From positions 127,246,385-127,310,384 of the forward strand of contig NC_079487.1 in the NCBI RefSeq assembly GCF_020520425.1: a DNA stretch of 64,000 nucleotides, in the 5' to 3' direction. Below the pieces are notes generated by a model, which was not told the origin of the DNA, made no database searches, and saw nothing but the letters and a program-made list of their open reading frames with translations. The DNA is from Spinacia oleracea (Eukaryota; Streptophyta; Magnoliopsida; Caryophyllales; Amaranthaceae). The translations under genes and the position numbers were made by a program. Position 1 is the stretch's first letter; the number at the start of each line of letters is the position of its first letter. Positions 16,380 through 60,845 of the stretch are shown here, piece after piece.

Positions 16380-17000
16380 TTAAGCTTTCTTGAACCTAAC
16401 CAAAAGAGGCTGACCACTAAAACCCAACAACCTCCTCCCATCTTCCTCAACAAAAGCACCAATATCTCCACACATAATCTTACAAAAGTTACAAACACCA
16501 GCACAATACACAATCTTATAATCATACTTCCCACTTCCCGCCTTCTCTATCTTAAACCAGTTACTAACCGTTTGCACTCCAGGATTACCGATTTCTCCTC
16601 CGACACCAATGTACCGCCTTCCGGTCTCTTCATCGATGGTTAACTCCCAAGTGTTGGATTGAACGCAGATGGTGGAGGCATCGAAGACGAAGTTGAGGTC
16701 AGTTGAGACAAATATCTTTGTGTCTTTAGGGTTGACCGAGTAGAACTTAAGAGGTAGGCCATTTGAGACTTCATGGTTTTCTTGTGCTACGTAGAGTGGA
16801 CATACTTCAGTGGTGTTCTTTGATAACATTGTTAGCCCACCGCCTCGGCCGCGGACTACTGGGAGGATGTAGTAGTTGGATCGCGGGCGAAGAGGGTGGC
16901 CATTGATGTCGAGGACGGCGGGGTTGGCAGCGGTGGTGGTGGGTGGAGAAAGGGATAAGAATAGGAGGATGGTGGCTGCTGAGAGGAAGTAATGGATCAT
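16380..17000 (-). CDS. Kunitz inhibitor, miraculin-like, six cysteines
   Basis: An intronless gene of 206 codons for a secreted Kunitz/STI-type proteinase inhibitor. Residues 1-24 are a signal peptide (MIHYFLSAATILLFLSLSPP). The mature part opens with the Kunitz signature VLDINGHPL...SNYYILP. It then shows CPLYVAQENHEVSNGLPLKF, typical of miraculin-like proteins, a second cysteine in STICVQSNTWEL, and the four-cysteine run YCAGVCNFCKIMCGD. The six cysteines suit three disulfides. The usual basic P1 residue of trypsin inhibitors is not obvious in the loop, so target specificity is open. A TATA box lies about 80 bp upstream. It is closely related to the copies at 23314, 47847 and 60151. Confidence 0.95.
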   Translation of the reverse strand: MIHYFLSAATILLFLSLSPPTTTAANPAVLDINGHPLRPRSNYYILPVVRGRGGGLTMLSKNTTEVCPLYVAQENHEVSNGLPLKFYSVNPKDTKIFVSTDLNFVFDASTICVQSNTWELTIDEETGRRYIGVGGEIGNPGVQTVSNWFKIEKAGSGKYDYKIVYCAGVCNFCKIMCGDIGAFVEEDGRRLLGFSGQPLLVRFKKA

Positions 17001-17076
17001 TTTTTTTTGTTATTGTGATGTTTGACTTTTGGAGATTGGGATAGATGTGGAGGAGAACGAAAGGATGGAAGACTGG

Positions 17077-23313: not shown

Positions 23314-23943
23314 TTAAGCTCTCTTAAACCTAACCAAAAGTGGTTGCTCTCTAATACCCAACAATCTCCTCCCATCACCCTCAACAAAAACACCAACATC
23401 TCCACACATCACCTTACAAGTGTTGCAAACACTAGGGCAAAACACAATCTTATAATCAAACCTTCCACTTCCGGCCTTCTGTATCTTAAACCAATTACTA
23501 ACCGTTTCGATGCCTGGATTCCCGGTTTGTCCTCCGAACCCCACGTACCGCCTTCCGGTGGCTTCGTCGAAGGTTAACTGCCAAATAAAGGACGGGCCAG
23601 ATGGCACGCAGAGAGGGACGGCATCAAAGACTAAGTTAAGATCAGTAGAGACATAAACTGTTCTGTCATTAGGGTTGACCGGGTACAACTCAAGAGGTAT
23701 GCCATCTTCGACTTCACGGCTATCTTGGGCCGCGTTGAGTGGACATAGTTCAGTGGCGTTTCTTGGTGATACTGTAAGTCCCCCGCCTCGGCCGCGGACT
23801 ACCGGGAGAATGTAGTAGTTGGAGCTGGAAAGAAGAGGGTGGCCGTCAATGTCGAGCACCGCCGGGTTGGCAGCGGTTGTGGTGTGAAGAGATAGGGAGA
23901 AGAAGAGGAAGATGATGCTAGTTGAGAGGATAAAGTGAGTCAT
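23314..23943 (-). CDS. Kunitz inhibitor, miraculin-like, six cysteines
   Basis: An intronless gene of 209 codons. The signal peptide (MTHFILSTSIIFLFFSLSLH) is followed by the Kunitz signature VLDIDGHPL...SNYYILP. Cysteines occur at LCPLNAAQ, PLCVPSG and in FCPSVCNTCKVMCGD, six in all. The loop after the first cysteine (DSREVEDGIPLELYPVN) differs from the HEVSNGLPL loop of its relatives and is more acidic, so inhibitory specificity may have changed. A GPSF insertion extends the second-cysteine region. A TATA-like sequence lies about 90 bp upstream. Confidence 0.95.
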   Translation of the reverse strand: MTHFILSTSIIFLFFSLSLHTTTAANPAVLDIDGHPLLSSSNYYILPVVRGRGGGLTVSPRNATELCPLNAAQDSREVEDGIPLELYPVNPNDRTVYVSTDLNLVFDAVPLCVPSGPSFIWQLTFDEATGRRYVGFGGQTGNPGIETVSNWFKIQKAGSGRFDYKIVFCPSVCNTCKVMCGDVGVFVEGDGRRLLGIREQPLLVRFKRA

Positions 23944-24028
23944 TTTGTGAAATTTTGGGGTTGTTTGACTTTTAGTGTCGTGGATAAATTAAATGTGGGA
24001 TGAGAAATAATTAAGGATTTAGAAGTGG

Positions 24029-25162: not shown

Positions 25163-25811
25163 TCAAGCTCTGATGAAGTTAACCAAAAGAGGCTGATCAT
25201 CCCTCCGTAAACCCAACAATCTCCTCCCATCTTGTTGTATGAAAACACCAATATCACCACACAACGGCAAACAAAAGTCACAAACACCTGGACAAAACAC
25301 AAACTTGTAATCATATTCCCCATTTCTGGCTTTCTCTATCTTAAACCAATTACTAATGGTCTGTATGCTTGGGTTACCAATTGTACCCCCTATCCCTACA
25401 TATAAACCTTCACTCATCTCGCCCTCGGTCAACCTCCACACTGTTGATTCCACGCATATGGTTGCGACATCAAATACGACGTTAAGGTCAGTGTTGAGTG
25501 GGATTTTTTGGTATTGAGTGTTAACGGGATAGAACTTAAGAGGTAGGCCGGCCATTTGAGACTTGGAGGTTATCTTGACCTACGTAGGCGGGTGGGCATA
25601 ATTCAGTACCGTTTTTACGCACCAAAGTTAGGCCTCCGCCTTGGCCTCCGATCACTGGGAGGACGTAATAGTTAGTGTCCGCTTGAAGAGGGTGGCCATC
25701 GATGTCAAGGACGGTCGTGTCAGCGGCCGTGGTGGTGGTGGTGGTGGTGAGGGGAGAGAGACAAACCAAGAGTATGATGGTAGCAGTTGAGAGGATTATT
25801 GAGTAGGTCAT
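25163..25811 (-). pseudogene. Kunitz inhibitor, miraculin-like, frameshifted
   Basis: A sixth member of the six-cysteine group. The 5' frame (25536-25811) gives the signal peptide (MTYSIILSTATIILLVCLSP), a Thr run and VLDIDGHPL...TNYYVLP. The 3' frame (25163-25555) continues LPLKFYPVN...CVESTVWRL...FCPGVCDFCLPLCGD. The two frames meet at SNG|LPLKF, where the DNA has GGCCGGCC and the paralogs have GGCC. A 4 bp tandem duplication therefore shifts the frame. The rest is well conserved, so the lesion looks recent, or it could be a sequencing error. The TATA box at 25851 is intact. Confidence 0.88.
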
Positions 25812-28651: not shown

Positions 28652-28656
28652 CTTTC

Positions 28657-28871
28657 TATAGAAACTAAGCGCAAGCATGAAGATATTTTGGAGAGAATTA
28701 TCAGTTTTCCATTAACTGAATCTCGTGAGAAAGAAGAAAAGAGAAAGCAGTAGTTTAAATACAACAATACTACAAGCTTAGCCTAACAACTTGCTGACTA
28801 GGACTAACAAACTTGTAACAACTTTTGTGTAAGGAAAATAAATCAATAACCATAAATAATCAGCTCCTATA
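28657..28871 (-). repeat. 3' LTR of the Copia element
   Basis: 215 bp, starting TATAGAAACTAAGCGC and ending CAGCTCCTATA on the plus strand. No difference from the 40586-40800 copy was seen on reading. Confidence 0.92.
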
Positions 28872-29384
28872 CTCCCCCTTCAAGCTGGACTTTAGATAAA
28901 AGTCCAAGCTTGGCAGACAAAGAGTGATGTTGAGAAGAAGCCAAAGGCTTTGTGAGCAAATCTGCAAGTTGTTGAGAGCTTGATACATGACTAGTGTGTA
29001 TGAAGCCAGCTTCTACCTGTTCACGAACATAATGCATATCCCTTTTGAGATGTTTGGTTTTGTCATGGAACATGGGATTCTTAGCTAAGTGTTCAGCTGA
29101 AGTATTGTCACAGTACAAGGTGATGGGAAGAGGAATGTTGACCTGAAGATCTTCAAGTAAGCCTTGTATCCAAACAAGTTCACTAGCTGTTGCTGACATA
29201 CTTCTGTATTCAGCCTCAGCTGATGATTTGCTGACACTTCTCTGTTTTTTTGTTTTCCATGAAATTAAGTTAGGACCAAGAAACACAGCATATGCACTGA
29301 GAGATCTACTGATGTATTGACAGGAGCTCCAATCAGCATCACTGTATGCTGACAATTGCATATCAGAACTTGATGAGTACCATA

Positions 29385-32305
29385 CACTACTAGAAAAAGG
29401 GTTTATAACGACGAACTTTTTCGTCGTTATAAGGCCAAAAAGTCGTCGTTAAAACCTTTAACGACGAACCAAGTTCGTCGTTGGTTTTGTCGTAACAGCT
29501 TCCGACGTTATTAGTTATAACGACGATGTTCGTCGTGAATTTTAAACGACGAAATCATGTGTTCGTCGTTACTTATTAACGACAATATACTTCGTCCGTC
29601 GTTAACTTATTACGACGACTCAATTTCTTGCCGTTATTAATCATGAAATAACGTCGAACAAATAGAAAATAATGACCAACTAAGTTGACGTAAAAAGAAG
29701 TTCAAATAGTAAGCGAAATTGAATTAGCATCTAAAAACAATAACACCGCTTAAAATATTTCATTACTGATTCAAATCAAAAGTAACAAATTTAAACGATT
29801 CGTATAAAACCAATAGAAAAAATAATATTTTTATTAATAGCCAAAATATGGAAATACAAATTAAAGATCTCGCTCCATTTCACTAATCGAAGAAAGAAAA
29901 AAAAAGATCTAACACCCAGTCTTAGTTCTACTGTTAGCTCCACCGTCTTGTGATCAAATTGGACAAATCACCCAATACAATTATTTTTAGTACCTATATA
30001 GAGTATGTCAATACTAATACCACAAATGACTAGTATTGGCACTTGCTTCTATTTTGAACACAAGACACTTTTGACATAGACTTCTTTCTCCTACATTAGC
30101 CCGAAAATACATAATAAGTACATCAAATGATTTGGTGGTAAAAAAGCGAGTTGTTGACGGCTTGATGTCAGCTCCCTTGTTAAAATGTAAAATACCTACA
30201 AATGTAAAAGAAATCGGAAATTGTAAGTAGTAATGTTAATAGAAATAAAATATAAGATCATATACTCTGTATATAAACCATAGCATAAGTAATACATCAT
30301 GTATTCCTCTGTTTTAGACTTCAAAATTAACCAATGATGCCCAAAAGTCTACAATTTTTCCACGCTTGGAAGTTAAAAAATGGAAGAAAAGGTTCTGAAT
30401 GGTGAGCATTAGACCTGAGGAGAAATACTTGAGCAGATTATCAGTAGCCCAGTAGAATTATTGTCATTGTCATTCTAGAAATCCGGACTTCACATTGACA
30501 TCTCCAACCTGCAACAAAGCAAGTTACTTAACTCCCTATTGATTACAAAAGAACCTCCCTAGAATCATAATGGTTATTATCTCTAGAATCATAAAACTTA
30601 TTCACCACCATTCTGATTATCGAATAATAAAAATATTTTAACTTATGGAACAGAACATAAATAGCAGCATATTTAGTTATGACTAGAACATGAAAATCAT
30701 GATATCAAAATTATTTATTTCCTGAGTTAAGTTATAGGTTTTGGTAAACTCGATTTCTACGGAGTGTATTAGAATCTAACAAAATTAAAAATTCTTGATA
30801 AGGATTAATTAGATATATAGAACTTTAAATGTCATTCAAACTTTATTATCAATTGTGTACTAAGTATTATTTTTTAGAATATACGACACATTAATTTGGG
30901 GGGAATATTGGTGGAATTCGCCCGAATTGGATATGTAATGAACACTTTGCCAGACTTTCTTAACAATTAGCAGAATTAAATAATAAATTTCTACATTGGA
31001 AAATTCAAATAAACATGTTTTAAGGAACAACATTGTTTGAATTTATAAACAGAATTATGGGAATTATACTCAAACGAAATTCAATATATGACATACCAGT
31101 TTTCTCATGTCTGCTACTTTAATGGCTTCTCCTTGAAAATACCAATAGGTTTTTACAATCATGACTCTAACATGAGCTACTGATCATCATATTCATATAC
31201 TAATTTCAATTTCACAACAATTCCAAGTTTACAGCAATAACTTGTGAAGAAGATCAACAATTCTTATTCAACAATCTAACTATCACCATAAGCCAAATTG
31301 CAAGAAGTAGGACAATTAGAATTGATACCTGCACTATTAACAAATGCAGCAACATGAACTCCACCACTACCCGTAATCTGCACATGATGTTGCGGAACAC
31401 TTTGTTCTTCAGAAGACGAAGTCGCCATTAAAGAGCTCACCAATTTCTTCAATAAAATTCTACAAATCGATCAAGAATCCAAAAGAAAACCCTCAAAAAT
31501 ATGGAACAAGAATCAAGCTGCAAATTGATCTGAATTTGCAGTAACGAACAAAGAGAACGACTAATCAGTCGCAAATGAAGAAAAGAGGCTCAATCGAAAT
31601 TTCTAGAAATTCGATTGAACAGTACCCACAAAATTTGGGGAAAAATTACTCCAGATTAACAACTCTCATAACTTGAGATGCCGAATACGGTTTCGTAAAC
31701 CAGTAAAAGAAATTCAAATTAAATCCCAGGAATTAGAGACTACCAGAACTCAAAACAGTACCTTACAAGAAACTTCAAAGGAGAACCCACCAACAAAACA
31801 GGAAAAAGATAACAAATCAGGTTAAATAAACACACAAAACCCAAATCCTATAAAATAGGAAATTATTAACGGAATCAACAACAATCTGAATTCGAAAGAG
31901 TTAAGCAATGAAAGAAATCAAGACAACCATTGATTTACCTGGATCAGGTGACTATGGAATTCGATTACTGTTTCCTTCTCAATTTTAATATTAGATCCTC
32001 AAATCCTCGATTTTGGGGAAGAAGATTGAGATTGAAAAAATCAACGAAGTTGTGCAAAAGAGGAGAGATGGATACGGTGGCTAGGGTTCACCTCTAGAAG
32101 GATTAGAAATGGGTTATAATAAACTTTAAAGCCTTTGTTATCTAAGCAAAGACGACGAACAGGGAAAACAAATGAAATTCCGCTTTTTTTATTTTTCATA
32201 AAATTTAAAATTAGATTAACCGCGCCTCTATATATTAGTTATTGCGACAATATTTTCCACATTGTCGTTATTTGGTTGTCGTTAATGTGTTTATTTCTAG
32301 TAGTG
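29385..32305. mobile_element. CACTA-type element inside Copia RNase H
   Basis: Starts CACTACTAGAAAAAGGG and ends TTATTTCTAGTAGTG, with 3 bp target duplication ATA (29382-29384 and 32306-32308). 2921 bp. Subterminal repeats of CGACGAAC/GTTCGTCG mark the left end. No transposase was recognised. The right part has a leader, an ATG exon on the minus strand (31329-31428) and intron-like DNA, suggesting capture of a host gene 5' end. Confidence 0.9.
31329..31428 (-). pseudogene. Captured first exon in the CACTA element
   Basis: ATG then 33 open codons (MATSSSEEQSVPQHHVQITG, then SGGVHVAAFVNSA) ending at CAG|GTATCA, a good donor. The leader upstream on the minus strand (31429-32100) resembles a plant 5' UTR. 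The source gene is not recognised. The Ala/Ser-rich MATSSSEE start is typical of many plant proteins. Confidence 0.5.
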
Positions 32306-34332
32306 ATAAGCCATCAGCTAAAGTGCCTTTCAAATACTTAAGAACATGCAGGGCAGCACGCAAATGAGGTGTTCTTGGTGAATGAACAAATTGACTGAGG
32401 TGTTGAACACAGTAAGACAGATCAGGTCTGGTGATGCTCAAATACAAAAGTCTTCCTACCAATCTTCTGTATACCTCAGGTTCAGCAATTAGATCACCAA
32501 CATCAGTGGACAACTTTAATCCACATGACAATGGAGTAGAAGCAGGATCACAGTCCTCCATGCCAGCATCAACCAAAATATCATTGATGTACTTCCTTTG
32601 AGAAAGGAAGATGCCATTGTCATTTCTGTGTACCTCTATCCCAAGAAAATAAGTTAGTTGGCCAAGATCTTTAATGGTGAAAGCTGGATCCAAAGCAGTT
32701 TTGACCTCATCAATTTGACATTTAGAAGTTCCAGTGAGGAGTATATCATCAACATAGACCAATAACACCAGAAATTCACCATCAAGATTCCTAGTGAACA
32801 AAGAGTAATCTTGTATTGACTGTTGAAAATTCAGTGTTTTAAGAAATTTGCTAAGCTCTTTATTCCATTGTCTTGATGCCTGTTTCAAACCATATAGGGA
32901 CCTTTTGAGTTTACAAACCTCTCCTGGTTTTGCCTTAGTGTAACCAGCAGGAGGAGTCATGTAAACTTCCTCATCAAGAAAACCATGCAGAAAAGCATTG
33001 TTGACATCAAGCTGATACAGTGTCCAATTTTTCATGGCTGCAAGGGCAATAACTATTCTCACAGTAGCAAGTTTAGCCACAGGAGAGAAAGTTTGGTTGA
33101 AATCTTTGCCTTCTATCTGTTGATAACCAATAGCAACAAGTCTTGCCTTATGCTTATCAATTGTGTAATCTGGATTGAGCTTTGTTCTAAAAATCCATTT
33201 AGAACCAATAGCTTTCTTGTTCTCAGGTAGCTCAGTTAAATCCCAAGTGTCATTACTTTCAAGAGCCTGAATTTCCTTTTCCATAGCTAGTACCCAATTT
33301 TCATTATTTTTGGCTTGGTTGTAATGCTTTGGATCAGAAGAAGAAACACACACAGAAAAGGCAAGGGACTCCCAAGTGTCATAGTCATTCAATGCTAGAG
33401 AAAGTAACCAGAGATCATCAGGTTCCATGGTAGAAGTAGAATCAATGTTGGGAAATGTATTGCTGACATTGAATGAAAGAGATTCACTGTCAGCACTATT
33501 TGGTGGAAGTGTTTTATCTCTGTGAGGTACATAGCCACCCACAAAGTCTTTAAAGGTGGATGGAGGTTTAATTGGTCTGGTAGATTTCCTTAAAACAGGT
33601 ATAGAATCTGTGTTTGGGTTTAGAATAGGAACATGTTCAGAAAGAGGGGAAATGGTAGAATCAGAGGTAGAAAGAGAATTGTGAGAAGAAAGAGATTCAA
33701 TAGGTGTGTTTGGGGAATTGTGTGGAGATAAAATGTCATTTTCAGTATTGACATTTTGAAAAGAATCAAGAGAAATAGAAGTATCAGACTCAGTAAACAA
33801 GTCATTGTTGTCTTGTGCTCTAGCAGTTCCAGAATCATCAGCAGATCCAAAATGAACCAATTGAGGAGTGGGAGATAACTTGGACTGAGAAGACAGTTTA
33901 TATGGGAATATATTTTCAAAGAAAATAACATCCCTTGAGACAAATGTGGTATGAGTGTCCAAATCATAGAGCTTAAAAGCTTTATACCCACCAGGATATC
34001 CAATGAAAAGACATCTTCTAGTTCTAGGATCAAATTTATCTCTGTGAATGTGACCATTGTGAGCAAAACAAAGAGAGCCAAACACCCTGAGCTTGTCATA
34101 AACTGGTGGAACTTGGAACATGATCTCAAAAGGAGTTTTCCAATTTAACACTTTGCAAGGAATCTTGTTAATCAAAGAAGTTGCTGTCAGAATACATTCT
34201 CCCCAGAATTTCTTAGGAAGATTGGCATGAAATCTCAAAGCCCTAGCTATTTCAAGAAGACTCCTATGTTTTCTCTCAACTCTGCCATTTTGCTGAGGTA
34301 TGTATGGCACACTTTTCTCATGTAGGATACCC

Positions 34333-37300
34333 CACTACTAGGAAAAGGGCTTTAGGCAACGGCTATAAACTGTTACTATAAGTCATGATACCGTTGCAAC
34401 AAGCCTATGGCAACGGTTTAAAAACCGTTACCAATAGGGGGCGTTGCCATAGGTTTATTGCAACGGATTATAAATCTTTGGCAACAATTTTTTAAAACCG
34501 TTGCTTTAAATATCTTTGGCAACATTTTCCTACAGTAACAGTTCTAAACTATAGCAACATTTATCTAATAATCAAAGGCAACAATTTTTACCTCTATAGT
34601 AACATTTTTCCTACAAACTTTGTCAACACTTTTTAACTTTGGCGACAGTTGTATAATACGGAGTATGAAAACCCATTTCACCTTAAAACATATCCAATAG
34701 TTAAATACGGTTTTAAGATTGAAGAGAACAAGCTTATATACGACACAAAATTGATCATTTGCACAAAAAAAGTTGTATTCGTATATTGAAATCTTGAAAA
34801 CATATTCTCAGTAGAACCAAATAACCAGTAAAGTTTAGAACAAAAAAAATAACCAATACATTCCCTTAGAGATTTATCTTCTATCAGGGAAAAAAAAGAA
34901 ACAATAATTGTAGGTCTCTTCTAATAAGAATAAATGAACTATTAAATATACATTAAATTACCACCAATTATGCCATTTGAATTCACGAGAACATCTCACT
35001 AAGAAACATTACACAAACTCTATCCATGTTTGAAAACTTGGGAGTAAGGAGAACATGTAGTTAGCCCTTCAGTGGCCTACAAAATGATTGCATCTGCAGC
35101 TTGTCATCATGTTCAAAATCAACCCAAATTTGAGATGCTCTTCATACAGGTAGTAGAGAAGTATGTCCATAACCGAGAGGTTGTAACTTAGATATATTTG
35201 TATAAATAGCTGCAACAACATGACACCAGTAGTGGCGAGGAAGGAGAAAGAAAAGTAAGCAGCTACAAAGGAACTCCAATCATTACATTCACCTCCATGT
35301 GAGTGCGCTTCTTCGTAATCCTGATATGTTATAGTCTACTTCATTTACATAGATTCCATAGGCTCAATGTATTGTTGAAGCTATCTGAATAGTTGGCATT
35401 CATTTTATTCAACATTCACAGAGAGTGACAGACTAACATTATGGTTCTCATGCGGTTATAAGTTCTCAAGATGGCATATATAGCTGCCTAGAGAGCAGGA
35501 GGATGAAGAGTTGTCTTTAGGGTCCTTTATAATCCAATTGACAGCCTGATCTGCCTCGGAAAAAGGGGATGGGAGAAGTTTGCAGTAACAGTTAGAACAA
35601 AGCAAAAGACAAAAATAAGCATAAACGATTACATACTAAGAAGTAAGAATACATCACATAAATAGTTACTTAAAATATGCTACATTTTAACAATTGAGCT
35701 AGAGATAAAGAGAAATAATCTTACTTCCTTGGATCTTGCAAGAAATTTCACAATTCTGAATTTTTCTCGGGTATGGAGAACCTGCAACATAGAAAAGAAA
35801 AGCATTAATATCTTGTTGTGATCATACTTAGTAAGATAGGAAAATAAGGAGCATATTTGTCTAAATAACAATTAGCAACACGGTACTAATTAAATACTTG
35901 AGGCAAGCTGGTAAAAGTGGTAACACCTTATCTCAAGGGTCTTACCACTTTTCAAATAGTCCTAGACATGATTGATATTTAATTATGTTTTGTTCTTCTT
36001 ATTCCTTAGTAATAAACCAATTATGTAGAAATTTAACTGTGTAAGGAATCAATATCATATGGGGAGTTGCCAATTGGACTATGTTACAGGATTTGGTACT
36101 TGTCTAGAAAGGTAGGCTCCATGAGAGGGTTCTTGCTGCACTTGTCATGCTACATATTCTAATCAACACCATAAGTTTCATGACCACAATGTATGAACTA
36201 CCAGAAGAAATTATGAATGCAGGGAACAACAGATATATATATTCAAAATAAAGAGAAATATTAGATCAATTAAACACATCTTAAGCAGGAACAATTATTC
36301 GTATACTCAATTAAAGGTTTTCCGTTAACCTTGCTTTTGTCAAACTTCATGTCCAAAATACCTTATAATTCTCAAACCAAGACTTTCAAAAATATGTCAG
36401 GGCCTCATTTATTATTCAAAAACTCACCTGAAGCCAAGGTGCTCACATATAGGTGTAATTTAATCAGGCATCAGTTAGAATCATAAAAGAAAATTTTAAT
36501 AATATGAAAATCCAACCTTATGCAACAGCAATACAACGACAATTCTGGAAGGTGAGTAACAAAGTATCAGTCTAACAAAAACAACTGATGTTCTTACGCA
36601 GACCTGAACCTGAATATACATCTCCCAACTGATTGTCCACATTAGAAATCTGCTTCCGGCTTCCTTATCCAATATATGAGTAATCATCTGCAGGAAAAAA
36701 TCTACTTTAGATTTTACATTAATCAACATATTGTGAAAATTTAAAACTGAAGTTGATCCATTATTCATCAAATTAGTTGCATTCCGACAGTCCAATCAAG
36801 AAAGCATATATCTCAAGCATACCAATTTCACATTATATCTCATACTAAACCTAATAGATTGATTACCAACAACAAGTTTGATTACCATTAAAGAGTAAAA
36901 ACAACCCTAGCATAGTTGAGAATATGTAAAAAATTATAGTTGCGCTCATAAACCAACCATCTATAGTAGCACATATGAAACGCCCAAATGCACAAATCAA
37001 CTTCCAATTTATCATGATAAGAAGAAATTTTGGTAGGTACTTAGTAAAATCAAGCATACCCTCAACAAATCATTAGGAAGAGGTGACAAAACCTTGAGGT
37101 TGGAAAGAGAAAAGGAGCAACCCAGCAAAAACATACCCCTGAAACCAAGGATAGATGGAATAAAGGCCATAACCAACACTCAAGGAATGAAGACATTATA
37201 AAAATACATTGATAATTATACTTTCCATGGGACAATGGTGTAGGAGTTTAGGAGTCTATTACATTTTTGACTTACAAAAACCTAGCAGGAAGACGATGAA

Positions 37301-38241
37301 AGTGCGCCCAAAGCTTGTCATCGAAGCCAGGAGGAGGAGATTATGGATTGTTCGATTCCTCCAACCTCTTATGCACCTCAGTCTTATGGCGCTTCTGCAT
37401 CAAATTTTGCGCACCATCATCGAAGCCCAAGACGTCGTCTCCGACATAATAGCTACTCTCCTGCGGTTGGATTCGCACGAGGTTCGCCCTGCCGCCCTGC
37501 TACTATTGCAACAATAATCGTTAGTTTCCATCACCATTCCTTCCTCCATCTCCCTCCTTCGATTTCACCTAAAAATTAGAGAGAAAAACTTAATTTTCTT
37601 AAAAGAAAACAAAATTTCTCTCTTCTTCTGCCGTTTGAACTGATGGGCATCAATTAAATTGCAGAAAAGTTAATTAATTGATAAAAATATATACTCAATG
37701 CAAAAGAAAGTATAAGAAATTGGAAGGAAGTAGCAATGCTCCATTTATCAATAGTCTGGAGATCGATATGCGAATTCTACTAAACACTAAATCAATTACC
37801 TATAACCATTAAAGAAATCTGATCGCCGACCATGGATCGATGTTATGCTCAACCCTAGTCATCTGATTTGCAAGCTAACTTCTTGTGAGAAGGAAACTGC
37901 TATGAAGAAAGCAAACGGAAGAGGGCGGTTTAAGGGTTTGTGAATGAAAAAGCGCCCAAACGAATAAAAGATTAGCAGGCATAGCATTTAGCCGCATAGT
38001 AGCCCAATTCCTTTTATTAATTTATTTTAATTTTTATCTAGGCATTAAAACTGTTGCAATAAAATAGCCCTTAACTCAATAATCAATAAGTGTTGGTATA
38101 GTTTTTCAATAGCAACAGTTTTTTAAAGTCAAAGCCAAAGAAAATGAATAAATTTATAACCGTTACAATAGCACTGCTATAGCAACGCATATAAAACTGT
38201 TGCCAAAAATGGCGTTGCTAAAACCCTTTTTTCTGGTAGTG
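34333..38241. mobile_element. CACTA-type element inside Copia integrase
   Basis: Starts CACTACTAGGAAAAGGGC and ends ACCCTTTTTTCTGGTAGTG, with target duplication CCC (34330-34332 and 38242-38244). 3909 bp. Subterminal repeats are built on GGCAACGG/AACCGTTGC. Exon-like minus-strand pieces lie inside: 36610-36687 (MITHILDKEAGSR, between CAG and GTTCAG) and about 35722-35784 (VLHTREKFRIVKFLARSKE, between GCAG and GTAAG). A plus-strand segment at about 37340-37580 reads PPTSYAPQSYGASASNFAH. None was identified. No transposase was recognised. Confidence 0.88.
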
Positions 38242-40585
38242 CCCTTAGCAGCAAACAAGGATCTACATGACTCATTGACTATTTCAGTCCCATTATCATA
38301 TCTGATTTTCTTAACCTTGGTGTTAAATTGAGTTTCAACCATGGATAAGAATTCAGATATGACTTTTTCAGTTTGCATTTTGTTATGCAACAGGAATGTC
38401 CATGTAGTTCTACTGTGATCATCAAGGATAGTAATAAAATAGGATGCCCCATCCAAACTTTTGACTTTATAAGGACCCCATAGATCCATGTGTATTAAGT
38501 CAAAACATGCAAGTGATCTGTTTTCACTCACACCAAAAGGAAACTTGTGTTGTTTTGAACTAAAACATACACCACAATTGTATTCAGTTATTCCTTTGCA
38601 AAAATCAGCATTAACATATTTCATCTTGGACAAAGAAGCATGTCCTAGCCTAGCATGCAGTAAATCAAGATCAACTCTATGCTGTTCCTTATTTACAGAG
38701 ATACTAGTACTAGTTTTATTTGGTAAAACCAACTGGTTCACATCAACTAGGTTTCCCACAGTATTACAACTTGTATGTTGGGTAGCCTCTCCTTGTTGTA
38801 TGCCAATACTTGACTGCTTATTTCCAGAATTTGCAACAAAATAGTAAAGTCCATTTGTCCTCTTTCCAGTGCCAATCAAGACAGATTTAGATGGGTCCTG
38901 GAAAGTATACCCAACAGTGGTGAATTCAACTTTAATGCCAGTGTGTTCTATCAATCTACCAACAGATAACAAGTTGTGTTTGAAACCTTTAACCAGCAGA
39001 ACATTGTGCAGAACCAGATCATCACTCAAAACAACATCACCCATGATTTCAACAGTTAACTGAGATCCATCAGGTAATCCAACCTTAATAGGATTTTTAA
39101 GTGTTCTTATGTTGGTTAACATATGTTCATTATAAGTCATGTGATCACATGCACCAGAATCCACAATCCACAAGCAATCATCAAGCATTTCATTCACAGA
39201 ACAGTTGAGGGAATGAGATATTATACCTGCATAGTTTGCATAGGAACAAGCCATTCCATTGTTGGTGTTGTTCTGTGGTTGCTTGCCTTTCATGGCCTTC
39301 ATGACCTCTTGACAAATAGCATTCAGCATTTCATTGTTGACTGTTGTATTTTCAGCTCCAGTATCATCCAGAGGACAGTCTGCAAAGTCAATGTTAGTAT
39401 GAACATTTGCAGCAATTCTGCCACCTTGTGAACTGTTTCCCTTGGAAGCTTTGATTGTATTGTACCAATCAGGATATCCAATGATCTTGAAACACTGGTC
39501 AACAGTATGACCCTTTCCTTTGCAATGTGTACACTGCCTGTTCATTTTATCTTTCTTCAGATCTTTCCAATCTTTCTTCCCTTGTGTTGATCCAACACTT
39601 CTGTAAGCCTGTGCAGCCATTGCACTACTATTCATAGCATTGCTTTCCACTGCAGCATGACACACTTCTTTCTGTTTTTCAATCTGTTGAGTAATAGAAA
39701 ATACTCTGTTTATGCTAGGTAATGGATCCATTGACAGAACATTAGTCACAGTGTTTTCAAATCCACCATTCAAACCAAGTAGGAATTTCATCATCTTGTC
39801 TTCTTCTTCAAATTCAGCTACCTTCTTCATGAAGTTACAACTGCATTGTAACAAAGCACCACAAGAACAGGTAGGAAATGCCCTCAAATTCTGCATTTCA
39901 TCCCAAAGTTTCTTCAGTTTTCCATAATAACTGACAATAGTCATGTTTTGCTGAGTCAAATTCTCAATCTCCTTTTTCAGCTGATAGATCAATGGTCCAT
40001 TGGATTGACCAAATCTTTCAGTCAATTCTCTCCATAATTCCACAGCAGTGTCAATGTATCCAAAATCATCAGCTAAATAATGATTCATTGAGCTTAAGAT
40101 CCAGCTGATTACCATAAAATCAGCACGCTTCCATTTTAAGTAATCCTTATGATTAATTGCAGGTTTAGCTATCTCACCATTGATGAAACCCTCCTTGTTC
40201 TTAGCAATTAAGGCTCGTTTAACATTTCTGCTCCATCGCACAAAATTTGTACCAGAAAATACCACAGCAACTAATGCAGAAGTCGGATTATCAGAATTTG
40301 CAATGAAATAAGGATCAAGATTATCACTATTACCTCCTTGATTCATGTTGTTGTTTTGAGTTTGTGATTGATTTTCTTCTGAATCATCAAACGCCATCAC
40401 AATCTTAGGTGAACAATCAATCTGATTCTATAACTTTGCGCAAGAAAATTTCGCAATCGCAGAAATTTTCGCAACAAATTTTCAGATAAGATGATCGAAA
40501 ACAGATCTTTAATCTGTTAATAATATGAGAAAACCTCAAGATCAAGCAACCTCAATCTCTTACCAGAGATTAAGCTCTGATACCA

Positions 40586-40800
40586 TATAGAAACTAAGCG
40601 CAAGCATGAAGATATTTTGGAGAGAATTATCAGTTTTCCATTAACTGAATCTCGTGAGAAAGAAGAAAAGAGAAAGCAGTAGTTTAAATACAACAATACT
40701 ACAAGCTTAGCCTAACAACTTGCTGACTAGGACTAACAAACTTGTAACAACTTTTGTGTAAGGAAAATAAATCAATAACCATAAATAATCAGCTCCTATA
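40586..40800 (-). repeat. 5' LTR of the Copia element
   Basis: 215 bp, next to the primer-binding site at 40574-40585, followed by the CTTTC duplication at 40801-40805. Confidence 0.92.
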
Positions 40801-40805
40801 CTTTC

Positions 40806-41522: not shown

Positions 41523-41529
41523 TATAAAA
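41523..41529 (+). promoter_or_regulatory. TATA box of the plus-strand Kunitz gene
   Basis: TATAAAA 47 bp upstream of the ATG at 41576. The leader between them ends CAACAACAACAAAA. Confidence 0.7.
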
Positions 41530-41575
41530 ACCATCCTTAAGCTTCTCCCAATTAACTTTTCAAACAACAACAAAA

Positions 41576-42187
41576 ATGAATCCTATCTTCCCCTTTGCAA
41601 CTGCAATCACTCTTCTTGTGTTTCTTTCTCCTCTTCCTACACTCAACGCCGTTGTTCTCGACACCGACGGTGAGGATGTACGTAACAGCGGCGGATCCTA
41701 TTACATCATCCCAAAAGGAAGTAGTAACGGCCTCACTCTTACCCAGAGACCCGGGAGCCCATCATGCCCACTCTATATAACCCAGATAACCACCTCTCCG
41801 GGTACATCTGTAACCATCTCTGCTCTTGTGAGAACACTTTTCATTCCAGTTTCCGCTAGAGTTAACATCGTGTTCAACACTGACGTTGCCACGTGCGCGG
41901 ACCCGCTTGAGTGGCACGTGACCCCTGATTTGGCTACCGGGAAGTCTTATGTGACTGCTGGTGGTGGTTCGACGGTTTCCAGTTATAGATTCAGCATTGA
42001 GCAGGCTGGCAATGGTGAAAAGGACAATATTTATAAGATAAGGTACTGTCCGTCTGCTGAGGAAGATGAAACAAATTGTGGTGACGTGGGTTTTCTCGGG
42101 GAGAATGGATTATTGGGTATCAATAATGAGAATCCACTTTTCGTTCAGTTTAAGAAAGTTAATACTGGAATGTCTGAGATAGTGTAA
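41576..42187 (+). CDS. Kunitz inhibitor, four-cysteine subtype
   Basis: An intronless gene of 203 codons. The signal peptide MNPIFPFATAITLLVFLSPL is followed by VVLDTDGEDV...GSYYIIP, the Kunitz signature. Cysteines: SCPLYI, TCADPLEW, YCPSAEEDETNCGD, that is four, arranged as in classical soybean trypsin inhibitor with two disulfides. The longer loop after the first cysteine (QITTSPGTSVTISALVRTLFIP) contains an Arg that could act as P1, unlike in the miraculin-like copies; this is inference. It is the only copy on the plus strand and is divergent from its neighbours. The hydrophilic tail NTGMSEIV is unusual. Confidence 0.93.
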   Translation: MNPIFPFATAITLLVFLSPLPTLNAVVLDTDGEDVRNSGGSYYIIPKGSSNGLTLTQRPGSPSCPLYITQITTSPGTSVTISALVRTLFIPVSARVNIVFNTDVATCADPLEWHVTPDLATGKSYVTAGGGSTVSSYRFSIEQAGNGEKDNIYKIRYCPSAEEDETNCGDVGFLGENGLLGINNENPLFVQFKKVNTGMSEIV

Positions 42188-42333: not shown

Positions 42334-45300
42334 TCATTGCAACTTAATTATTTGCATAGCTTCCCTCCATCCAGCGTCTTTCATTGCCTCATTAAAAGTC
42401 CTAGGCTCAAGGCCGCCAAGAACAGCTGCAAGAAATATACGATGTCGCAAAGAAAATTTTTCGCAATTCATAAAATGTGCTATAGGATAGGGAGTACCTG
42501 AAGAGCCAGTGGAGAATGGTTCATGGGTGGACGGACTCTTAGCTTGTACAGTGTGCGTGACAAAATTCTTGAGTAGTACGGAAGGGCGCCTGAGACGACA
42601 CCCCTTGCCCAAACCAATCGGACCATCATCGTCCACCTCTTGAGAAGAGGATTGGGCCTGCTGCGTATGCGGCCTAGGTGGAGTAGAGGGAACGGACTCC
42701 TGTGAAGCAGGAGAAGAGAGATCAGCCTGCTGGGCCAAATGAGGAGATGGGCCCAATGGAGACACCAAGGCAGTTCGCTGGTCCAGTGCTGGTGTTGTAG
42801 GTGTTTGTGTTGGACTGGGCTGCTCTAAGGGATCAGCACGATCCACAGCCAAACCGTGGCCAGGGGCCATAAGATGCTCCCCTACCGTGGACTCCACTGG
42901 TCCAGTATTATCACCAAAAGAGTTTTCCAAATCATCCAAAATTGTTCCAGCAGTATCACCAAATGTGTTTTCCAAATTATCCAAATTAACCACATTATCA
43001 TCACCAAGTGCCAAATCAACATCACCAATTGATGTAGCAAAAGGGAATTCGTTTTCATGAAATTTGACATCCCGAGACACAAAGATTTCAGAAGTTTCCA
43101 TATCATACATTTTCCACCCCTTCTTACCATTAGGATACCCAATAAATGCACATTTTCGACTTCGAGACGCAAATTTATGACCCTTAGACTTTAGATTATA
43201 CGCATAGCAAAGACAACCGAACACACGCAAATGATCCAAATCCGGTTCTTTGCCAAATAAAATCTCAAACGGAGTCTTATTTTGCAATAATCCTGACGGT
43301 GTACGATTAATCAAATAAACTGCACCCAGAATACATTCACCCCAAAGCGAAAGCGGAAGATTACCCTCAAACATAAGAGCACGACCAACATTTAAAATGT
43401 GTTGATGCTTTCGTTCAACCCGACCATTTTGCTGAGGGGTACCAACACAAGAAGTTTGAAAAATAATCCCATGTTCATCAAAATAACCCAACATACATTT
43501 GAATTCTGTGCCATTATCACTACGGACAAATTTGACAGTCGTTTCAAATTGACGTTCAATCATAGCAAAAAACGAACGAAAAACTTTATAAACTTCTGTT
43601 TTTGAATGTAAAAGATACACCCACACCGCTCTTGAAAAATCATCTACCAAGGTTAAGAAATAATGTGCACCACTAGTTGAAGAAATAGAATTGCGACCCC
43701 ATAAATCACAATGAATTAATTCAAAAATTCTACTTGCTTTGCTATCACTAACAGGAAAACTATCACGATGTTGCTTGGCTTGGGGACAAATTCCGCAAGC
43801 TTTATTTAATTTCTTCATCACATTACGAGAACAATTCTTAATTGCAGGTACTAACTTGAGAACTCTATCAGACGGATGCCCCAGTCGACGATGCCATAAC
43901 TCAAATGTAGATGATGCAGGAACAGTCACTGCACACACTGTTGGTATTTCCCGAAAATAATAGAGTCCATCCTTCCGTTCACCGGCTCCAATCAGGCTCC
44001 CCGAATGTTGGTCCTGTATAGCACAAAGTGAATCAGTGAATTTAACGAAGCATTTAGAATTATCAATCATTTGCGACACCGATATTAAATTGCAAGGCAA
44101 ATTAGGAACATATAAGACATTATAAAGAATTAATGAGTTCGATAGTGCAGCTTGGCCCTCCATGGTAGCTATGACAGTATTTCCGTCCGGCAGGCCAATA
44201 GGAGAGTCAATAATAGACTCCATATTTGTTAACCGAGAAGCATCACCAGTGACATGACGGGACGCTCCAGTGTCAATTATCCAAGGTAACAAAGAACACT
44301 TACCCGTCATCTTATCTAACTGTGAACCATTATTGTTAAGCATATTAAGAATCGCTCGAACTTGCTCCGGTGTATACTCCACGGTGCCTGCTGTAGCTTC
44401 ATCAGAAGCAGCCACAAAACTGCTCTCCCCTATACAGCCACTGCCAGAAATGGCATTCACACGCGCAGGCACCCCACGACCAGCAGTAACAGACGCAAAT
44501 CCTCCCTTCGAAGAACCTCCCTTAGCCCGTTTCTGCTTCATCTCTTCATACCATTCCGGATAGCCATGGAGTTTGAAACATGTGCTATTATCATGCCCCG
44601 TACGTTTGCAGTGAGTGTAGGTAAGCTGTGTTTTATCAGGCCGGTCAAATCGAGGCTTCACACGTTCAGTTTGCACGGCAAAAATGGATTGAGTTTGCAA
44701 CCCTTCCTTCGAGGCCTTTACATTAGCAATTTCACGGGAGCGTTCTTCTTGTATGAATGCGAGGTAAGCTTCATCAAGGGAAGGCAACGGGACGCGAGAC
44801 AAAAGATTTGTGCGCACCGTAGCATACATGTCATCATCAACACCGACCAGGAATTGGTGTAGGATCTCCTCATCCCGATCCTCGGCTAATTTTCCAGCCA
44901 TATCACACGAACAAGCACCACATTCACAGGTACGAAGAGGCTTGAATTGAACCAAATCATCATACAACCCCGTGAGCATGGCATAGTAATCCTCCATGGA
45001 CATTCCCTTACCTTGCTTACAAGCCGTAATTTGGCAACGTAATTGTTGCAGACGAGGACCGTTTGCGACACCGTACTTCTTAGCCAAGAAATCCCATAAT
45101 TTCTTTGCGTTGTCATGAAAGGGAATATGAGCAGCAATCTTTGGTTCCATGCTCCTCAACATCCAGGAAACTAGCATCGAATTAACAGTCACCCAATCGA
45201 GCAGTTTCTTTTTCTCAGTAGGTTGAGTAATCGTGCCATCCACGAACATAAATTTCCGGCGAGATTGAAGGGCCAATTGCATTGCCCTAGCCCACGCCAT

Positions 45301-45700
45301 GTAGTTCTCACCCCGTAGTAATACGTGAGTAATTATGGTCCCCGGTTGATCTCCAGAACTTAAGTAATACGGAGATGCGGGATCGATCTTTCCATCACCT
45401 TCCATGGGTATTCAAGAATTTGTATTCACGCTGGTGAAACTTGAAGGAAGAAGACGGACGAGGATAGAAAAAAATTTGTAGGTTAGGGTTTGCTAGGCTG
45501 CTAGCTCCGATACCATGACAAATTAATTAGGGTAGATTGTTTTCTTGCCTTGTATTTCTCAGTAACGTGCGTTATATAGTACAGCTCTAATCTATGGGCT
45601 TTTAGGTTAAATATATTAAATACAAAATATAACCCTAAGCCCAATTTACAATAAATAAGCCCTAATAGACTTTAATGACGATGAGAATTTTCACCATACA
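42334..45700 (-). mobile_element. Incomplete Copia LTR element
   Basis: A long uninterrupted frame (42334-45405) covers gag (UBN2-type), a CCHC-like knuckle (YTHCKRTGHDNSTCFKLHG), protease (WIIDTGASRHV), GAG-pre-integrase (LWHRRLGHPS) and integrase (HCDLWG...DDFSRAVWVYL...NGTEF...PQQNGRVERKHQ), then a Pro/Ser-rich linker. Reverse transcriptase, RNase H and a second LTR are not seen. A primer-site-like TGGTATCGGAGC (minus strand, about 45504-45515) abuts an LTR that starts near 45516 and ends about 45700. It lies directly 3' of the plus-strand Kunitz gene. Moderately young by the open frame. Confidence 0.85.
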
Positions 45701-47846: not shown

Positions 47847-48494
47847 TCAAGCTTTCTTGAAGTTAACCAAAAGAGGCATATTATCCGTATTTATACCCAA
47901 CACCCTCGTCCCAATTCTCTGTTGAAAAACACCAACATCCCCACAAAACGGTCTACAAAAGTCACAAACACCAGGACAAAACACAAACTTGTAATCATAC
48001 TTGCCACTTCCAGCCTTCTCTATCTTAAACCAATTACCAAGTGTTTGTACCCCTGGATTTCCAATTGTTCCTCCTGTGCCTACGTACGGCCTTCCCTCCG
48101 CCTCATCGTTGGTAAATTTCCATTGAGTAGATTGCACACATGTGGTGGAGGCGTCGAACACGACGTTGAGGTCAGTGGTAAGAGGGATTGTTTTGTCTTT
48201 TGGGTTAACAGGGTAGAATTTAAGAGGTATCCCTTTCGAGAGTTCGGCTGTATCTTGAGCTACGTAGAGTGGGCATGATTGAGTTGATGAGTTTCTAGAC
48301 GCCAAAGTTAGGCCTCCGCCTAATGGGACTCTGATCACTGGGAGGACGTTGTAGTTGGTGCCGGCTTGAAGAGGGTGGCCATCGATGTCGAGGACGGCCG
48401 TGTTAGCGGCGGTGGTGGTCAGAGGAGATAGACAAAGGAAGAGGAGGACGGTGGCAGTTGAGAGGATTAAGTAAGCCATATTTGTGGACTTCAT
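47847..48494 (-). CDS. Kunitz inhibitor, miraculin-like, six cysteines
   Basis: A secreted Kunitz inhibitor. The frame opens at 48494 (MKSTNMAYLILST). The second Met at 48479 matches the start of the paralogs (MTHFILSTS, MTYSIILST), and the first lies only about 35 bp from the TATA box, so 48479 is the likelier start (210 residues). The signal peptide is followed by VLDIDGHPL...TNYNVLP, CPLYVAQDTAELSKGIPLKF, TCVQSTQWKF and FCPGVCDFCRPFCGD, six cysteines in all. The loop has Lys in ELSKGI where relatives have ELSNG or EVSNG, a possible basic P1 residue. The C-terminus PLLVNFKKA is typical of the cluster. Confidence 0.94.
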   Translation of the reverse strand: MKSTNMAYLILSTATVLLFLCLSPLTTTAANTAVLDIDGHPLQAGTNYNVLPVIRVPLGGGLTLASRNSSTQSCPLYVAQDTAELSKGIPLKFYPVNPKDKTIPLTTDLNVVFDASTTCVQSTQWKFTNDEAEGRPYVGTGGTIGNPGVQTLGNWFKIEKAGSGKYDYKFVFCPGVCDFCRPFCGDVGVFQQRIGTRVLGINTDNMPLLVNFKKA

Positions 48495-48527
48495 TAAGAG
48501 ATATATGAATATATGGATGGAAGAAAC

Positions 48528-48536
48528 TATTTATAG
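48528..48536 (-). promoter_or_regulatory. TATA box of the Kunitz gene at 47847
   Basis: CTATAAATA on the minus strand, about 35 bp from the first ATG and about 50 bp from the conserved second ATG. Confidence 0.7.
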
Positions 48537-48643: not shown

Positions 48644-48665
48644 CATTGTCGGCATTGTATGTTTA

Positions 48666-49187
48666 ATTGCATCGTATGTAAATGCATTTTTTGTAATGTA
48701 CGGCATTCACACGTACTTGTAATAACTAATAAGTAATCAAATTTGTAATGAGTATACCTAAAGATTAAAATAAAATGGAAAACGATCTTTTTTAGTTGAC
48801 TACTTAGCTTTGACAAAATTATTTACCAAAATTGTCATTTTCAAATTCTAATTCCTAAACTAGCTAAGAATTTTAACTGTGTTTTAAAATTTATTAAACG
48901 GCTTTGGTTTGGGTGCTTTTTACGTAAATATGGAAAAAGATTAATACTTTTTATATTCCGTAATAGGAATATATGTATGGATCGGAGTATCATTTTTTGC
49001 TCCCTGTACTATTTTGTTTAGATTTTTTTTTTTTTTATAATATACCATATAGATCCGGAAATTGAGAAGGACGTTTATTTGTGTTAAATAATTCAGCATT
49101 GACTATTCTAGATTTCTAGGATAAGATCTTTACGGCTACGTAACAAAACGTCCCACCGTATGTACAATCTTACTCCGTAGGGAGTAA
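48666..49187. repeat. 0.52 kb direct repeat, left copy
   Basis: 522 bp nearly identical to 56553-57073 (about five substitutions and one T-run length change). It ends exactly at the A that precedes the Helitron-like terminus CTAG at 49188. It includes upstream DNA of the Kunitz gene at 47847. Confidence 0.93.
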
Positions 49188-50529
49188 CTAGTATAGTACC
49201 CGTGCGATGCACGGTTTATAATCTAAAAATAAATTTATATGAAACCTAGTAGATTATAGATGTTCTCCAAGTTAAAAATATGATGGATAATTTGTTATTG
49301 CTCATGCGACGTCGTCTTATTTATTGGTTTAATTGAAACAAATAAGCTGGGTACATAGATAAAATTATTTCCATTCTCATTCACCACTTGTGTCAAGAAT
49401 AAAGGTATCGCTTCCACCCTTCACTTCGATAGTAAAACCCACTTAATATACACATGTTCCCCCATCAACCTCATTACCAGATCATTTAACACGTACCTAC
49501 ACCATTTACTTTATTCATTTAGAGATGACTTTAAGGCAAGGTGAGACCTGCCCACCCGTACCCGCCTTCAATTCTCATCCTCATCCACGCCGTTCACGAT
49601 AGGTTTGATACCCACCCCTCTCAATCCTCGTTTTGATAGATACAAAATAAAATGCATTCACTTCATCACCCTCCATGTATCCACATCCCCCTCAAACTCA
49701 ACCCTAGACTCAACATTTTTTTTTTTTGGCAAAGGAGCTTTGAATTTTAAAACTTTAATCTAGAGTCTTTTGACAATTCGTTTGTTTAATTAGAATAATT
49801 AAGTAAACAAAACATTATAATATGCACTCTTAAGTTAGTACGGAGTAGTATTTTTTTCTATATTATTCATAATCAATTATATGTATGATTAGCGGCGCAG
49901 GCGAGTCCACTAGTGCAAAAACGCTCATTTGCGTCGGTACAATTGCCTCGCTCATTCAAATGAGCGACGCAAAAATACACATTTTGATTTGTAAATATGC
50001 TTTGCGTCGGTGATTTACTAATCTGTGACGCAAATGGACCTATACAAGTTAATTTAATTATTTACGTCGGTGATTAGTAAATCAGCGACGCAGTTTACTC
50101 TTAAATTGCGTCACACGCGTATAATTGAACGACGCAAGTGACCCTTTTATATTTTTTCATTTATTTTCTCGCATAGATCCAGGTCGAACAAACTTTTCGC
50201 CTCCTCTCCTTCTCTCTCCTCCTCCTTTCGAAATCTCCATTGCCGGAACTCCAACACCTCCCATCTCACCTTCAAAAATTCAGAGTCAACCTTATCCATT
50301 CGAAGTCTTCTCTCACCAAGCCGCCCCTTTCTATTTAATCTGAAAATTCGAGCTCTGCGAAAATGGGAAGAGGGGCGAAACCCTAGGTTTCGGCGCGGGG
50401 AGAAAGGTGACATCCTGAAGCAGAAAGGCTTAGTTTTTTAAGGCTGTGAAACACACCACACTACTGGATCACGAATTGTTGGTGTTGGAGCTCTAGTTTA
50501 ACTCGCCGCCCGTACTTGGCTACCTTGAT

Positions 50530-53245: not shown

Positions 53246-54764
53246 GCCAATTATATCTACGGCGCGCGTCATTGGACTTAATTTGCCTAATCGTTTACTT
53301 GAGTGTACTTCTATGTGTTCTACTGTAACATTGGCCTACTTTTTGAAATAAGTAAGACTTTTTCAATTGTTTTCCATGTCCAAATCTTAGTAATATGAGT
53401 TCTTTTGATGGTTAGCTTTCAACTATTCTTTTTAATTGGTTTACTAGTAGAATTTGGATGGGTTTTTCTTTGGAAAGTTAGGGTCTGAGTTTGTTTGTTC
53501 AGCGTTCCTATGGGGCTTTGTTGTAGTTTGCAGTAGCTCTTTCATATATTGATGTTGCCTGTAATAAAGAATGGAAGAAGCATATACAATACTAATGGAA
53601 GGCTTTTTATGCTGTGAATATGTGCTCTTTGCAGATGTTAACTGTTTTGTTGTAATTCGAGTCCTTGTGATTTCTTGTTTCTTTATGATAAGCTTTCTTC
53701 TTAATTCCTGATGTTGCTCTAACTTTTTTCTTTCAAATTTTTTATTTACAGCTTGATAGCTATGATATCGGAAGAGGGAAAGAGAACTAAAAGTATACCT
53801 GATACTCTGATGGCATCGCTAGTAAAATATTGTTAGTGTAATATGCAAGATTGTTAGTTAATTTGTATAATTTTTCTAATAATACCCTGTAGCATTTCCC
53901 ATTAAATAATGTCAAAGGCTAATACGTGAAATAGGATTTGATAACTTGAGAGGTTAGAGGTATTGAAGGATACTTCCCAAACTGTATGTATCATGTTTCC
54001 TTTGATGCAGCTTCAACAGATATTTTCTAGATCTATATACCTCTTTCTTACGCAAGTCATGGAAGTAGAATGCTCCGGAATGTTCCCTTTTATTGATATC
54101 ATTTTATTTTAATTTTTGTAGACTATTTTATTGTTGAAATTGAATGTTAATTTGTATATTGTTAGTGTGAGGGAAAATATAACTAAGACTTTCACATTTT
54201 GTTTATTTTAATCTACATATATAGTGCAGATTAAATAAATAAATTGTGGAGGTCTTTTTTTTAAAAAAAAAACAAAAAGTCATTTAGCTAATGTGCGAGG
54301 CAAATGACTTTTCAGCATGGCACCAAAAACGTCATTTGCGTCGCACATTTAGCTAATGTGCGACGCAAATGACTTTTCAACATGGCGCAAGAAAAGTCAT
54401 TTGCGTCGCACATTTGCTTAATGTGCGACGCAAATGACCCTCATTTGCGTCGCACATATGTGCGATGCAAATGACTTTTAGTCATTTGCGTCGAGAGCTT
54501 TTGCCACGCGCAATGTGCGACGCAAATGCACTTAAATGTGCGATGCAAATGAGCCTTTTTCCACTAGTGGTCCAATCTAAAATCCATCATCGCCCTGTCA
54601 CTCCATAACACATACATTTTTAAACCTCGTCACCCACCAAACTTTCCTCTATCCCCGTCCCTTAGGAAGGATGCACATGGGGATCCACAAAAAAACTTGA
54701 TCCACAGGCAATCTGACACCCCTATATTTGATAAATAATCCACTTTTGGACAGCACATCTATAC

Positions 54765-56552: not shown

Positions 56553-57073
56553 ATTGCATCGTATGTAAATGCATTTTTTGTAATGTACGGCATTCACACG
56601 TACTTGTAATAACTAATAAGTAATCAAATTTGTAATGAGTATACCTAAAGATTAAAATAAAATGGAAAACGATCTTTTTTAGTTGACTACTTAGCTTTGA
56701 CAAAATTATTTACCAAAATTGTCATTTTCAAATTCTAATTCCTAAACTAGCTAAGAATTTTAACTGTGTTTTAAAATTTATTAAACGGCTTTGGTTTGGG
56801 TGCTTTTTACGTAAATATGGAAAAAGATTAATACTTTTTATATTCCATAATAGGAATATATGTATGGATCGGAGTATCATTTTTTGCTTCCTGTACTATT
56901 TTTTTTAGATTTTTTTTTTTTTATAATATACCATATAGATCCGAAAATTGAGAAGGACGTTTATTTGTGTTAAATAATTCAGCATTGACTATTCTAGATT
57001 TCTAGGATAAGATCTTTACGGCTACGTAACAAAACGTCCCACCGTATGTACGATCTTACTCCGTAGGGAGTAA
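56553..57073. repeat. 0.52 kb direct repeat, right copy
   Basis: Near-identical to 48666-49187. Here GGAGTAA runs on into TTACTAATTAATCAG, so this copy preserves the A|T join at which the Helitron-like terminus sits in the left copy. Confidence 0.93.
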
Positions 57074-57297
57074 TTACTAATTAATCAGATCAAGTAGTGT
57101 AGATCAGAGGCTTAGGCGATTGAGGAGGAATGCACGTGTATTGCATCTTATATTCCTATGAATGATCTATGTCATGACGTATTCACGCTCGAGGTTGTAA
57201 ATGGGGTCAATGCAAAATTGCTTTAAGCAAACATAGACTTTTGGTCATTTTCAGTACAACAGAATTAATTTTATTGACTAAAATTAATTATTCATGT

Positions 57298-60777: not shown

Positions 60778-60845
60778 TTTCGTTGACTTTTTAAGCTGAG
60801 ATATGATAGGCTAGGGGATGAAGAAACGGAAGTAGTTTAGGAGGT

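Follow-up and report, generated by a model that had tools for sequence, protein, structure and literature searches.

Two non-autonomous CACTA elements of different families inside a young Copia retrotransposon of spinach

We analysed a stretch of 64,000 nucleotides of the spinach genome (C1:127246385-127310384, referred to as the window) and conclude, with a probability of about 0.93, that it holds a young Copia retrotransposon that was later split by two non-autonomous CACTA elements of different families moved in trans. The Copia, in minus-strand orientation, would have entered a CTTTC target, probably within the last half million years or so, and the two CACTAs would then have been pasted into its gag-pol coding region. 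CACTA1 would have landed between the reverse-transcriptase and RNase H parts and CACTA2 beside the integrase core, each making a fresh 3-bp duplication and together breaking the polyprotein, and the transposase for both would have been supplied by elements elsewhere. The locus itself is a case of ordinary nesting by known kinds of elements. What the analysis usefully adds are the dated near-identical CACTA copies, the presence of two families rather than one and the candidate helper transposases. Genome searches covered 894,210,420 bases in 242 contigs.

The features of the window are given in Table 1. As an earlier note on this DNA had claimed, the Copia carries 215-bp LTRs without a single difference on alignment, and CTTTC is duplicated on both of its sides; its minus-strand orientation, the TATAG...CTATA LTR ends, the PBS and the purine tract are features absent from that note. 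Its two LTRs within a 5-bp TSD, the integrase placed before the reverse transcriptase (RT) and a copia-type gag identify it as Ty1/Copia. All three polyprotein pieces stay open up to the CACTA junctions. The pieces were searched separately; GAG-pre-integrase scores below the Pfam cut-off in the first, and the last gave no Pfam match at 1e-3, although, judging by a motif, we take it to be the RNase H region. The PBS presumably matches the plant initiator-Met tRNA. The usual, but not universal, TG...CA termini are absent, and the TATAG...CTATA termini that stand in their place are common to the window copy and to the sister copies described below (L009, L010, L012, and L011 by its printed ends). 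Pipelines demanding TG...CA may miss such a Copia family.

Table 1. Positions of the nested elements and of the Kunitz-type frames in the window
Feature	Position	Strand	Remarks
Kunitz frames (PF00197)	2819-3493, 16383-17009, 23317-23988, 25166-25579 (partial), 47850-48530, 60154-60810	-	
Full-length Copia LTR retrotransposon	28652..40805	-	including TSDs; reads on minus strand
Copia TSD left, CTTTC	28652..28656	.	
Copia 3' LTR, ends TATAG...CTATA	28657..28871	-	215/215 identical to 5' LTR
Last pol frame piece	28870..29384	-	open as far as CACTA1 junction
Polypurine tract AAGGGGGAG	28872..28880	-	adjoins 3' LTR
CACTA1 TSD left, ATA	29382..29384	.	
CACTA1	29385..32305	.	2,921 bp; 12-bp perfect TIR CACTACTAGAAA; ACGACGA/TCGTCGT subterminal repeats
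Gene-like exons in CACTA1	30508..31428	-	31428-31329, 31131-31097, from 30508 downwards; GT/AG introns, ATG, stop
CACTA1 TSD right, ATA	32306..32308	.	
Middle pol piece: SH3-like + RVT_2 (reverse transcriptase)	32306..34332	-	fully open
CACTA2 TSD left, CCC	34330..34332	.	
CACTA2	34333..38241	.	3,909 bp; imperfect TIRs; GCAACGG subterminal repeats
CACTA2 TSD right, CCC	38242..38244	.	
First gag-pol piece: copia-type gag, Pol_BBD, GAG-pre-integrase, integrase core	38242..40427	-	fully open
PBS TGGTATCAGAGC	40574..40585	-	adjoins 5' LTR
Copia 5' LTR	40586..40800	-	identical to 3' LTR over 215 bases
Copia TSD right, CTTTC	40801..40805	.	
Kunitz frame (PF00197)	41528-42184	+	starts about 720 bp from Copia right end

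Both inserts show CACTA-tipped TIRs, a 3-bp TSD and a subterminal repeat array, and the exact ATA and CCC duplications previously described for them are present. The 3-bp TSD was found in 9/9 full CACTA copies compared (6 of CACTA1 and 3 of CACTA2). With up to 3 mismatches allowed, the terminus CACTACTAGRAAAAGGG occurs four times in the window; shuffled sequence gave a mean of 0.42, and 0/100 shuffles reached four. The two transposase queries gave no tblastn match in the window at 1e-5, and three frames of CACTA2 gave no Pfam match. Since no transposase was detected, we regard both elements as non-autonomous, which is allowed within the CACTA family.

The earlier note had also proposed that the two elements, with their related ends, are one recently active group moved by one transposase. 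The relatedness of the ends is clear on the 5' side, where 17 aligned bases differ by one change, and weaker on the 3' side, where about 15 bases agree with two changes; the shared 5' bases are what speaks for a single group. Beyond these tips, ACGACGA/TCGTCGT occurs 11 times in the two terminal 350-bp stretches of CACTA1 and never in its interior, and GCAACGG/CCGTTGC occurs five times in the terminal stretches of CACTA2 and never in its interior. Each motif is absent from the other element and, of the subterminal motifs tested, none is common to both, bar one match in the CACTA2 interior. Besides, neither element turned up in the genome search made with the other (best 40 of 464 candidates for CACTA1 and best 40 of 360 for CACTA2), and the transposase families near CACTA1-type and CACTA2-type ends are just 44-47% identical. 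A single group is thus unlikely and was rejected on its differing subterminal repeats; by these comparisons, two CACTA families have been active, not one.

Regarding CACTA1, at least six full copies including that of the window, on five chromosomes, were found among the best 40 of 464 candidates. The five other copies differ from the window copy at 1, 6, 6, 7 and 10 of 2,921 positions and have exact TSDs of their own (TCC, TTC, TAT, TTG and ATC). A search with the right end, in which 18/18 candidates were scored, gave eight matches at 99-100%, including the window copy, and ten at 85-92%. The closest pair, with one difference in 2,921, lies entirely on C1, its members being 5.6 Mb apart (the window copy and C1:132.87 Mb), and dates to about 13-24 ky, with a 95% upper limit of 73-136 ky. 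For CACTA2, at least three full copies including the window copy were identified (best 40 of 360 candidates); the other two, with TSDs GGC and TAC, differ from it by 4 substitutions and by 5 substitutions plus a 5-bp deletion, with pair ages of about 39-91 ky and 95% upper limits of 101-213 ky. All these dates refer to the common ancestor of two copies, so that at least one of each pair has moved since, not necessarily the window copy. The earlier note had asked to look genome-wide for near-identical relatives; those found here have TSDs of their own, and their near-identity suggests that both kinds of CACTA jumped recently.

Several CACTA1 copies have neighbours of their own. One (L015) sits inside a Copia gag frame, another (L014) has a helicase frame about 1.1 kb away, and a third (L021, C5:94109455-94127294) adjoins a frame with an endonuclease domain, which we assume to be of the LINE type. 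The last of these is a 99% copy split by an insert of about 14.9 kb that starts with TGTTAGG, and its two matches to CACTA1 overlap by 6 bases; the insert is possibly an LTR element, that is, nesting in the reverse order. At C3:106.2 Mb, a CACTA1 relative of 3,939 bp (TSD ATT) is bordered on the left by a Copia integrase/SH3 frame and on the right by a frame with no Pfam match. The flanking frames of L014 (left side), L017, L018, L019 and L020, all CACTA1 copies or relatives, gave no Pfam match at 0.01.

We infer that both elements were mobilised in trans, and candidate sources of transposase were found in unequal measure. Transposase_21 frames had 1,375 candidates in the genome, the best 150 of which were scored, all over the cut-off; 149 of these, after one on C84 was dropped, were compared with the positions of CACTA ends. 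For seven of 34 CACTA2-like left ends, a frame of this kind lies no more than 20 kb away on the inner side; random placement gives a mean of 0.12 (largest of 500 trials, 3). CACTA2-like ends are therefore found beside transposases more often than by chance, with the frame on the opposite strand in six cases and on the same strand in one. Six of the seven frames were compared: five belong to an eight-member set sharing 99.2-99.8% identity with one of its members across 622 aa, and the other (L063) reaches 95% across 372 aa. Three of the eight members have no scored end alongside. The terminal 300 bases of these putative helpers are only 73-76% similar to those of CACTA2 (best 40 of 360 candidates), which makes them candidates. 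Among CACTA1-like ends, 1/34 (C3:83604585, 83%) lies 9.5 kb from an 868-aa frame (chance 0.09, largest of 500 trials 2), a single case that hints weakly at an autonomous partner. Judged by their termini, helper and cargo are not closely matched (73-76% for CACTA2 and 83% in the one case of 34 for CACTA1). The search for an autonomous source that the earlier note called for has thus given a candidate family for CACTA2 and just this one instance for CACTA1.

The age of the Copia was approached with sister elements of the same genome. An LTR search, in which the best 40 of 42 candidates were scored, led to four full-length copies (L009, L010, L011 and L012) whose LTRs share 92-99% identity with that of the window, relatives with LTRs at 70-88% being left out. 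Two substitution rates were used, the Arabidopsis rate of 7e-9 and a rate of 1.3e-8 per site per year. The second has been applied to spinach (PMC6337768). The window copy, with 0/215 LTR differences, would be at most 0.66 My old at the faster rate or 1.2 My at the slower one (95% upper bounds). Across the five copies, 133 of about 5,308 aligned sites are variable (gap columns left out), and the window Copia has 17 private changes (5 synonymous, 8 non-synonymous and 4 non-coding), with no private stop in its LTRs or interior in this five-copy comparison. If all 17 arose after insertion, which makes this an upper estimate, the element is about 0.25 My old at the faster rate (95% 0.14-0.39) and about 0.46 My old at the slower (0.27-0.73). 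These values suggest an insertion below about 0.25-0.46 My ago, so that 'very young', as the Copia had been called, allows for ages up to that range. The element as a whole is the better guide to its age; the dating by LTRs was overstated, as on their own they give only the 0.66-1.2 My bound. As spinach LTR elements have a mean age of 1.42 My and a peak at about 0.5-0.8 My in the account of PMC6337768, the window Copia is young but unexceptional.

One could argue that the Copia is old and that gene conversion homogenised its LTRs, in which case their identity would misdate the insertion. Just 215 bp of LTR were compared, and LTR gene conversion is described in PMC7251063 as widespread in plants and able to hide age, with about a quarter of nested elements showing higher LTR divergence than the element hosting them. 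We consider this very unlikely, given that interior and LTRs together hold only the 17 private changes and no private stop, with the upper age that follows from them. Moreover, the LTR pairs of L009, L010 and L011 also show 0 differences (for L011, in a comparison offset by one base from the LTR ends), while the pair of L012 shows 1.

That the CACTAs came after this young Copia is supported by its sisters. In 4/4 of those fetched, the ATA and CCC sites are single, unduplicated and uninterrupted, which is the pattern of sites that were never filled. Clean single target copies are not the usual outcome of excision, since in rice only 8/94 DNA-transposon excisions left just two target copies and the rest left deletions or filler, according to PMC4423477. 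Both window CACTAs would therefore postdate the split from the sisters. The window flanks and TSDs of CACTA1 or CACTA2 were found in none of the five other full CACTA1 and two other full CACTA2 copies, so the CACTAs most simply arrived after the Copia inserted. Slightly less credible still than an old Copia is that a parental Copia already held both CACTAs and was copied together with them by transcription and retrotransposition, making their insertions older than that of the Copia: the LTRs, PBS and purine tract are present, so that in principle the transcript might be moved by proteins from a different copy, but the inserts are missing from every sister in the LTR range sampled, no other full CACTA copy has the window flanks, and the scenario calls for a transcript of 12 kb and for the parent to have been lost. 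A Copia lineage that already carried CACTAs was rejected, as the inserts occur in none of the copies compared. The earlier claim that both CACTAs must be later therefore agrees with the empty sites, although 'must' also needs co-retrotransposition to be excluded, and no sign of it was found.

Read on the minus strand, CACTA1 contains an ATG, two introns with GT/AG borders and a stop, which together define a frame of 57 aa with no Pfam match at E 1. A genome search with 312 bases of this cargo (21/21 candidates scored) returned 19 rows at 90-100% and two fragments at 72-74% on C6. Of the 19 rows, 18 lie in CACTA1 copies or relatives, two of them being parts of one split copy, and the other is a 90% match at C3:34628712. 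One of the two C6 fragments was inspected and does not form an intact gene, and no intact donor gene was found among the 21 candidates. The exons may represent a captured gene and are best treated as a lead. It is a tentative possibility that CACTA1 is a low-copy, gene-carrying Pack-CACTA still mobile in spinach, as the C1 pair with one base in 2,921 and the open transposase frames beside related termini might indicate, with CACTA2 served by a candidate helper family of transposases about 99% identical among themselves.

CACTAs were met inside Copia more than once. Sister L009, whose LTRs are identical, has a third CACTA-type insert (1,778 bp, L009:4774-6551; ends CACTACAAGAAA, TSD CAC) at a position different from those of the window inserts, which brings the count to three in five young Copia copies, alongside the copy in a gag frame and the CACTA1 relative beside a pol frame noted above. 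We claim no enrichment for insertion into Copia: Copia is common in the genome and the locus was picked as striking. Copia makes up about 24% of the spinach genome (PMC6337768).

Around the split Copia, the window has a cluster of at least seven frames of Kunitz-type protease inhibitors (Table 1) and, next to the element, another Copia-type frame, distinct from it, which runs from gag to SH3-like over 1,025 aa (42337-45411, minus strand). Direct repeats of 529 bp at 48665-49193 and 56552-57079, 98.5% identical and 7.9 kb apart, are candidate LTRs of another retrotransposon. Units of 65 bp repeated in tandem at 54281-54569 contain GCGTCGCA motifs and, on the minus strand, a CACTAGTGGAAAAAGGC terminus; they are possibly another CACTA end. 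Pieces of a COBRA-like gene (PF04833, PF25079) lie at 10670-12188 on the plus strand.

A nested series with clean empty sites offers a relative clock for which LTR divergence is not the sole basis, and here it points to two CACTA families moving in about the past one to two hundred thousand years. The insertions could be used as markers, and the elements, with their candidate helpers, as a candidate active tagging system in spinach. A limited literature search found no report of an active CACTA in this species.

Finally, the elements of the window can be set against known systems. The Copia resembles plant Ty1/Copia elements in its gag, its domain order, its 5-bp TSD, its PBS and its purine tract, and departs from them in its LTR ends; LTR elements with ends other than TG...CA are already in print (PMC5659011). 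CACTA1 is like Pack-CACTAs as presented in PMC8903248 in having CACTA ends, no detected transposase and gene-like exons, and unlike them in its lack of an identified intact donor and of a Pfam match in its 57-aa frame. Compared with the Chenopodium CACTA (En/Spm) elements described in PMC8978399, CACTA1 and CACTA2 differ in having no detected transposase, and share the CACTA-tipped TIRs, the 3-bp TSD and the subterminal arrays of direct and inverted repeats. According to the same source, TIRs of the Chenopodium Jozin elements begin with CACTAGTAG, CACTAGTGG or CACTAGTAC, and the CACTA tips in the window are CACTACTAG/CACTACCAG.
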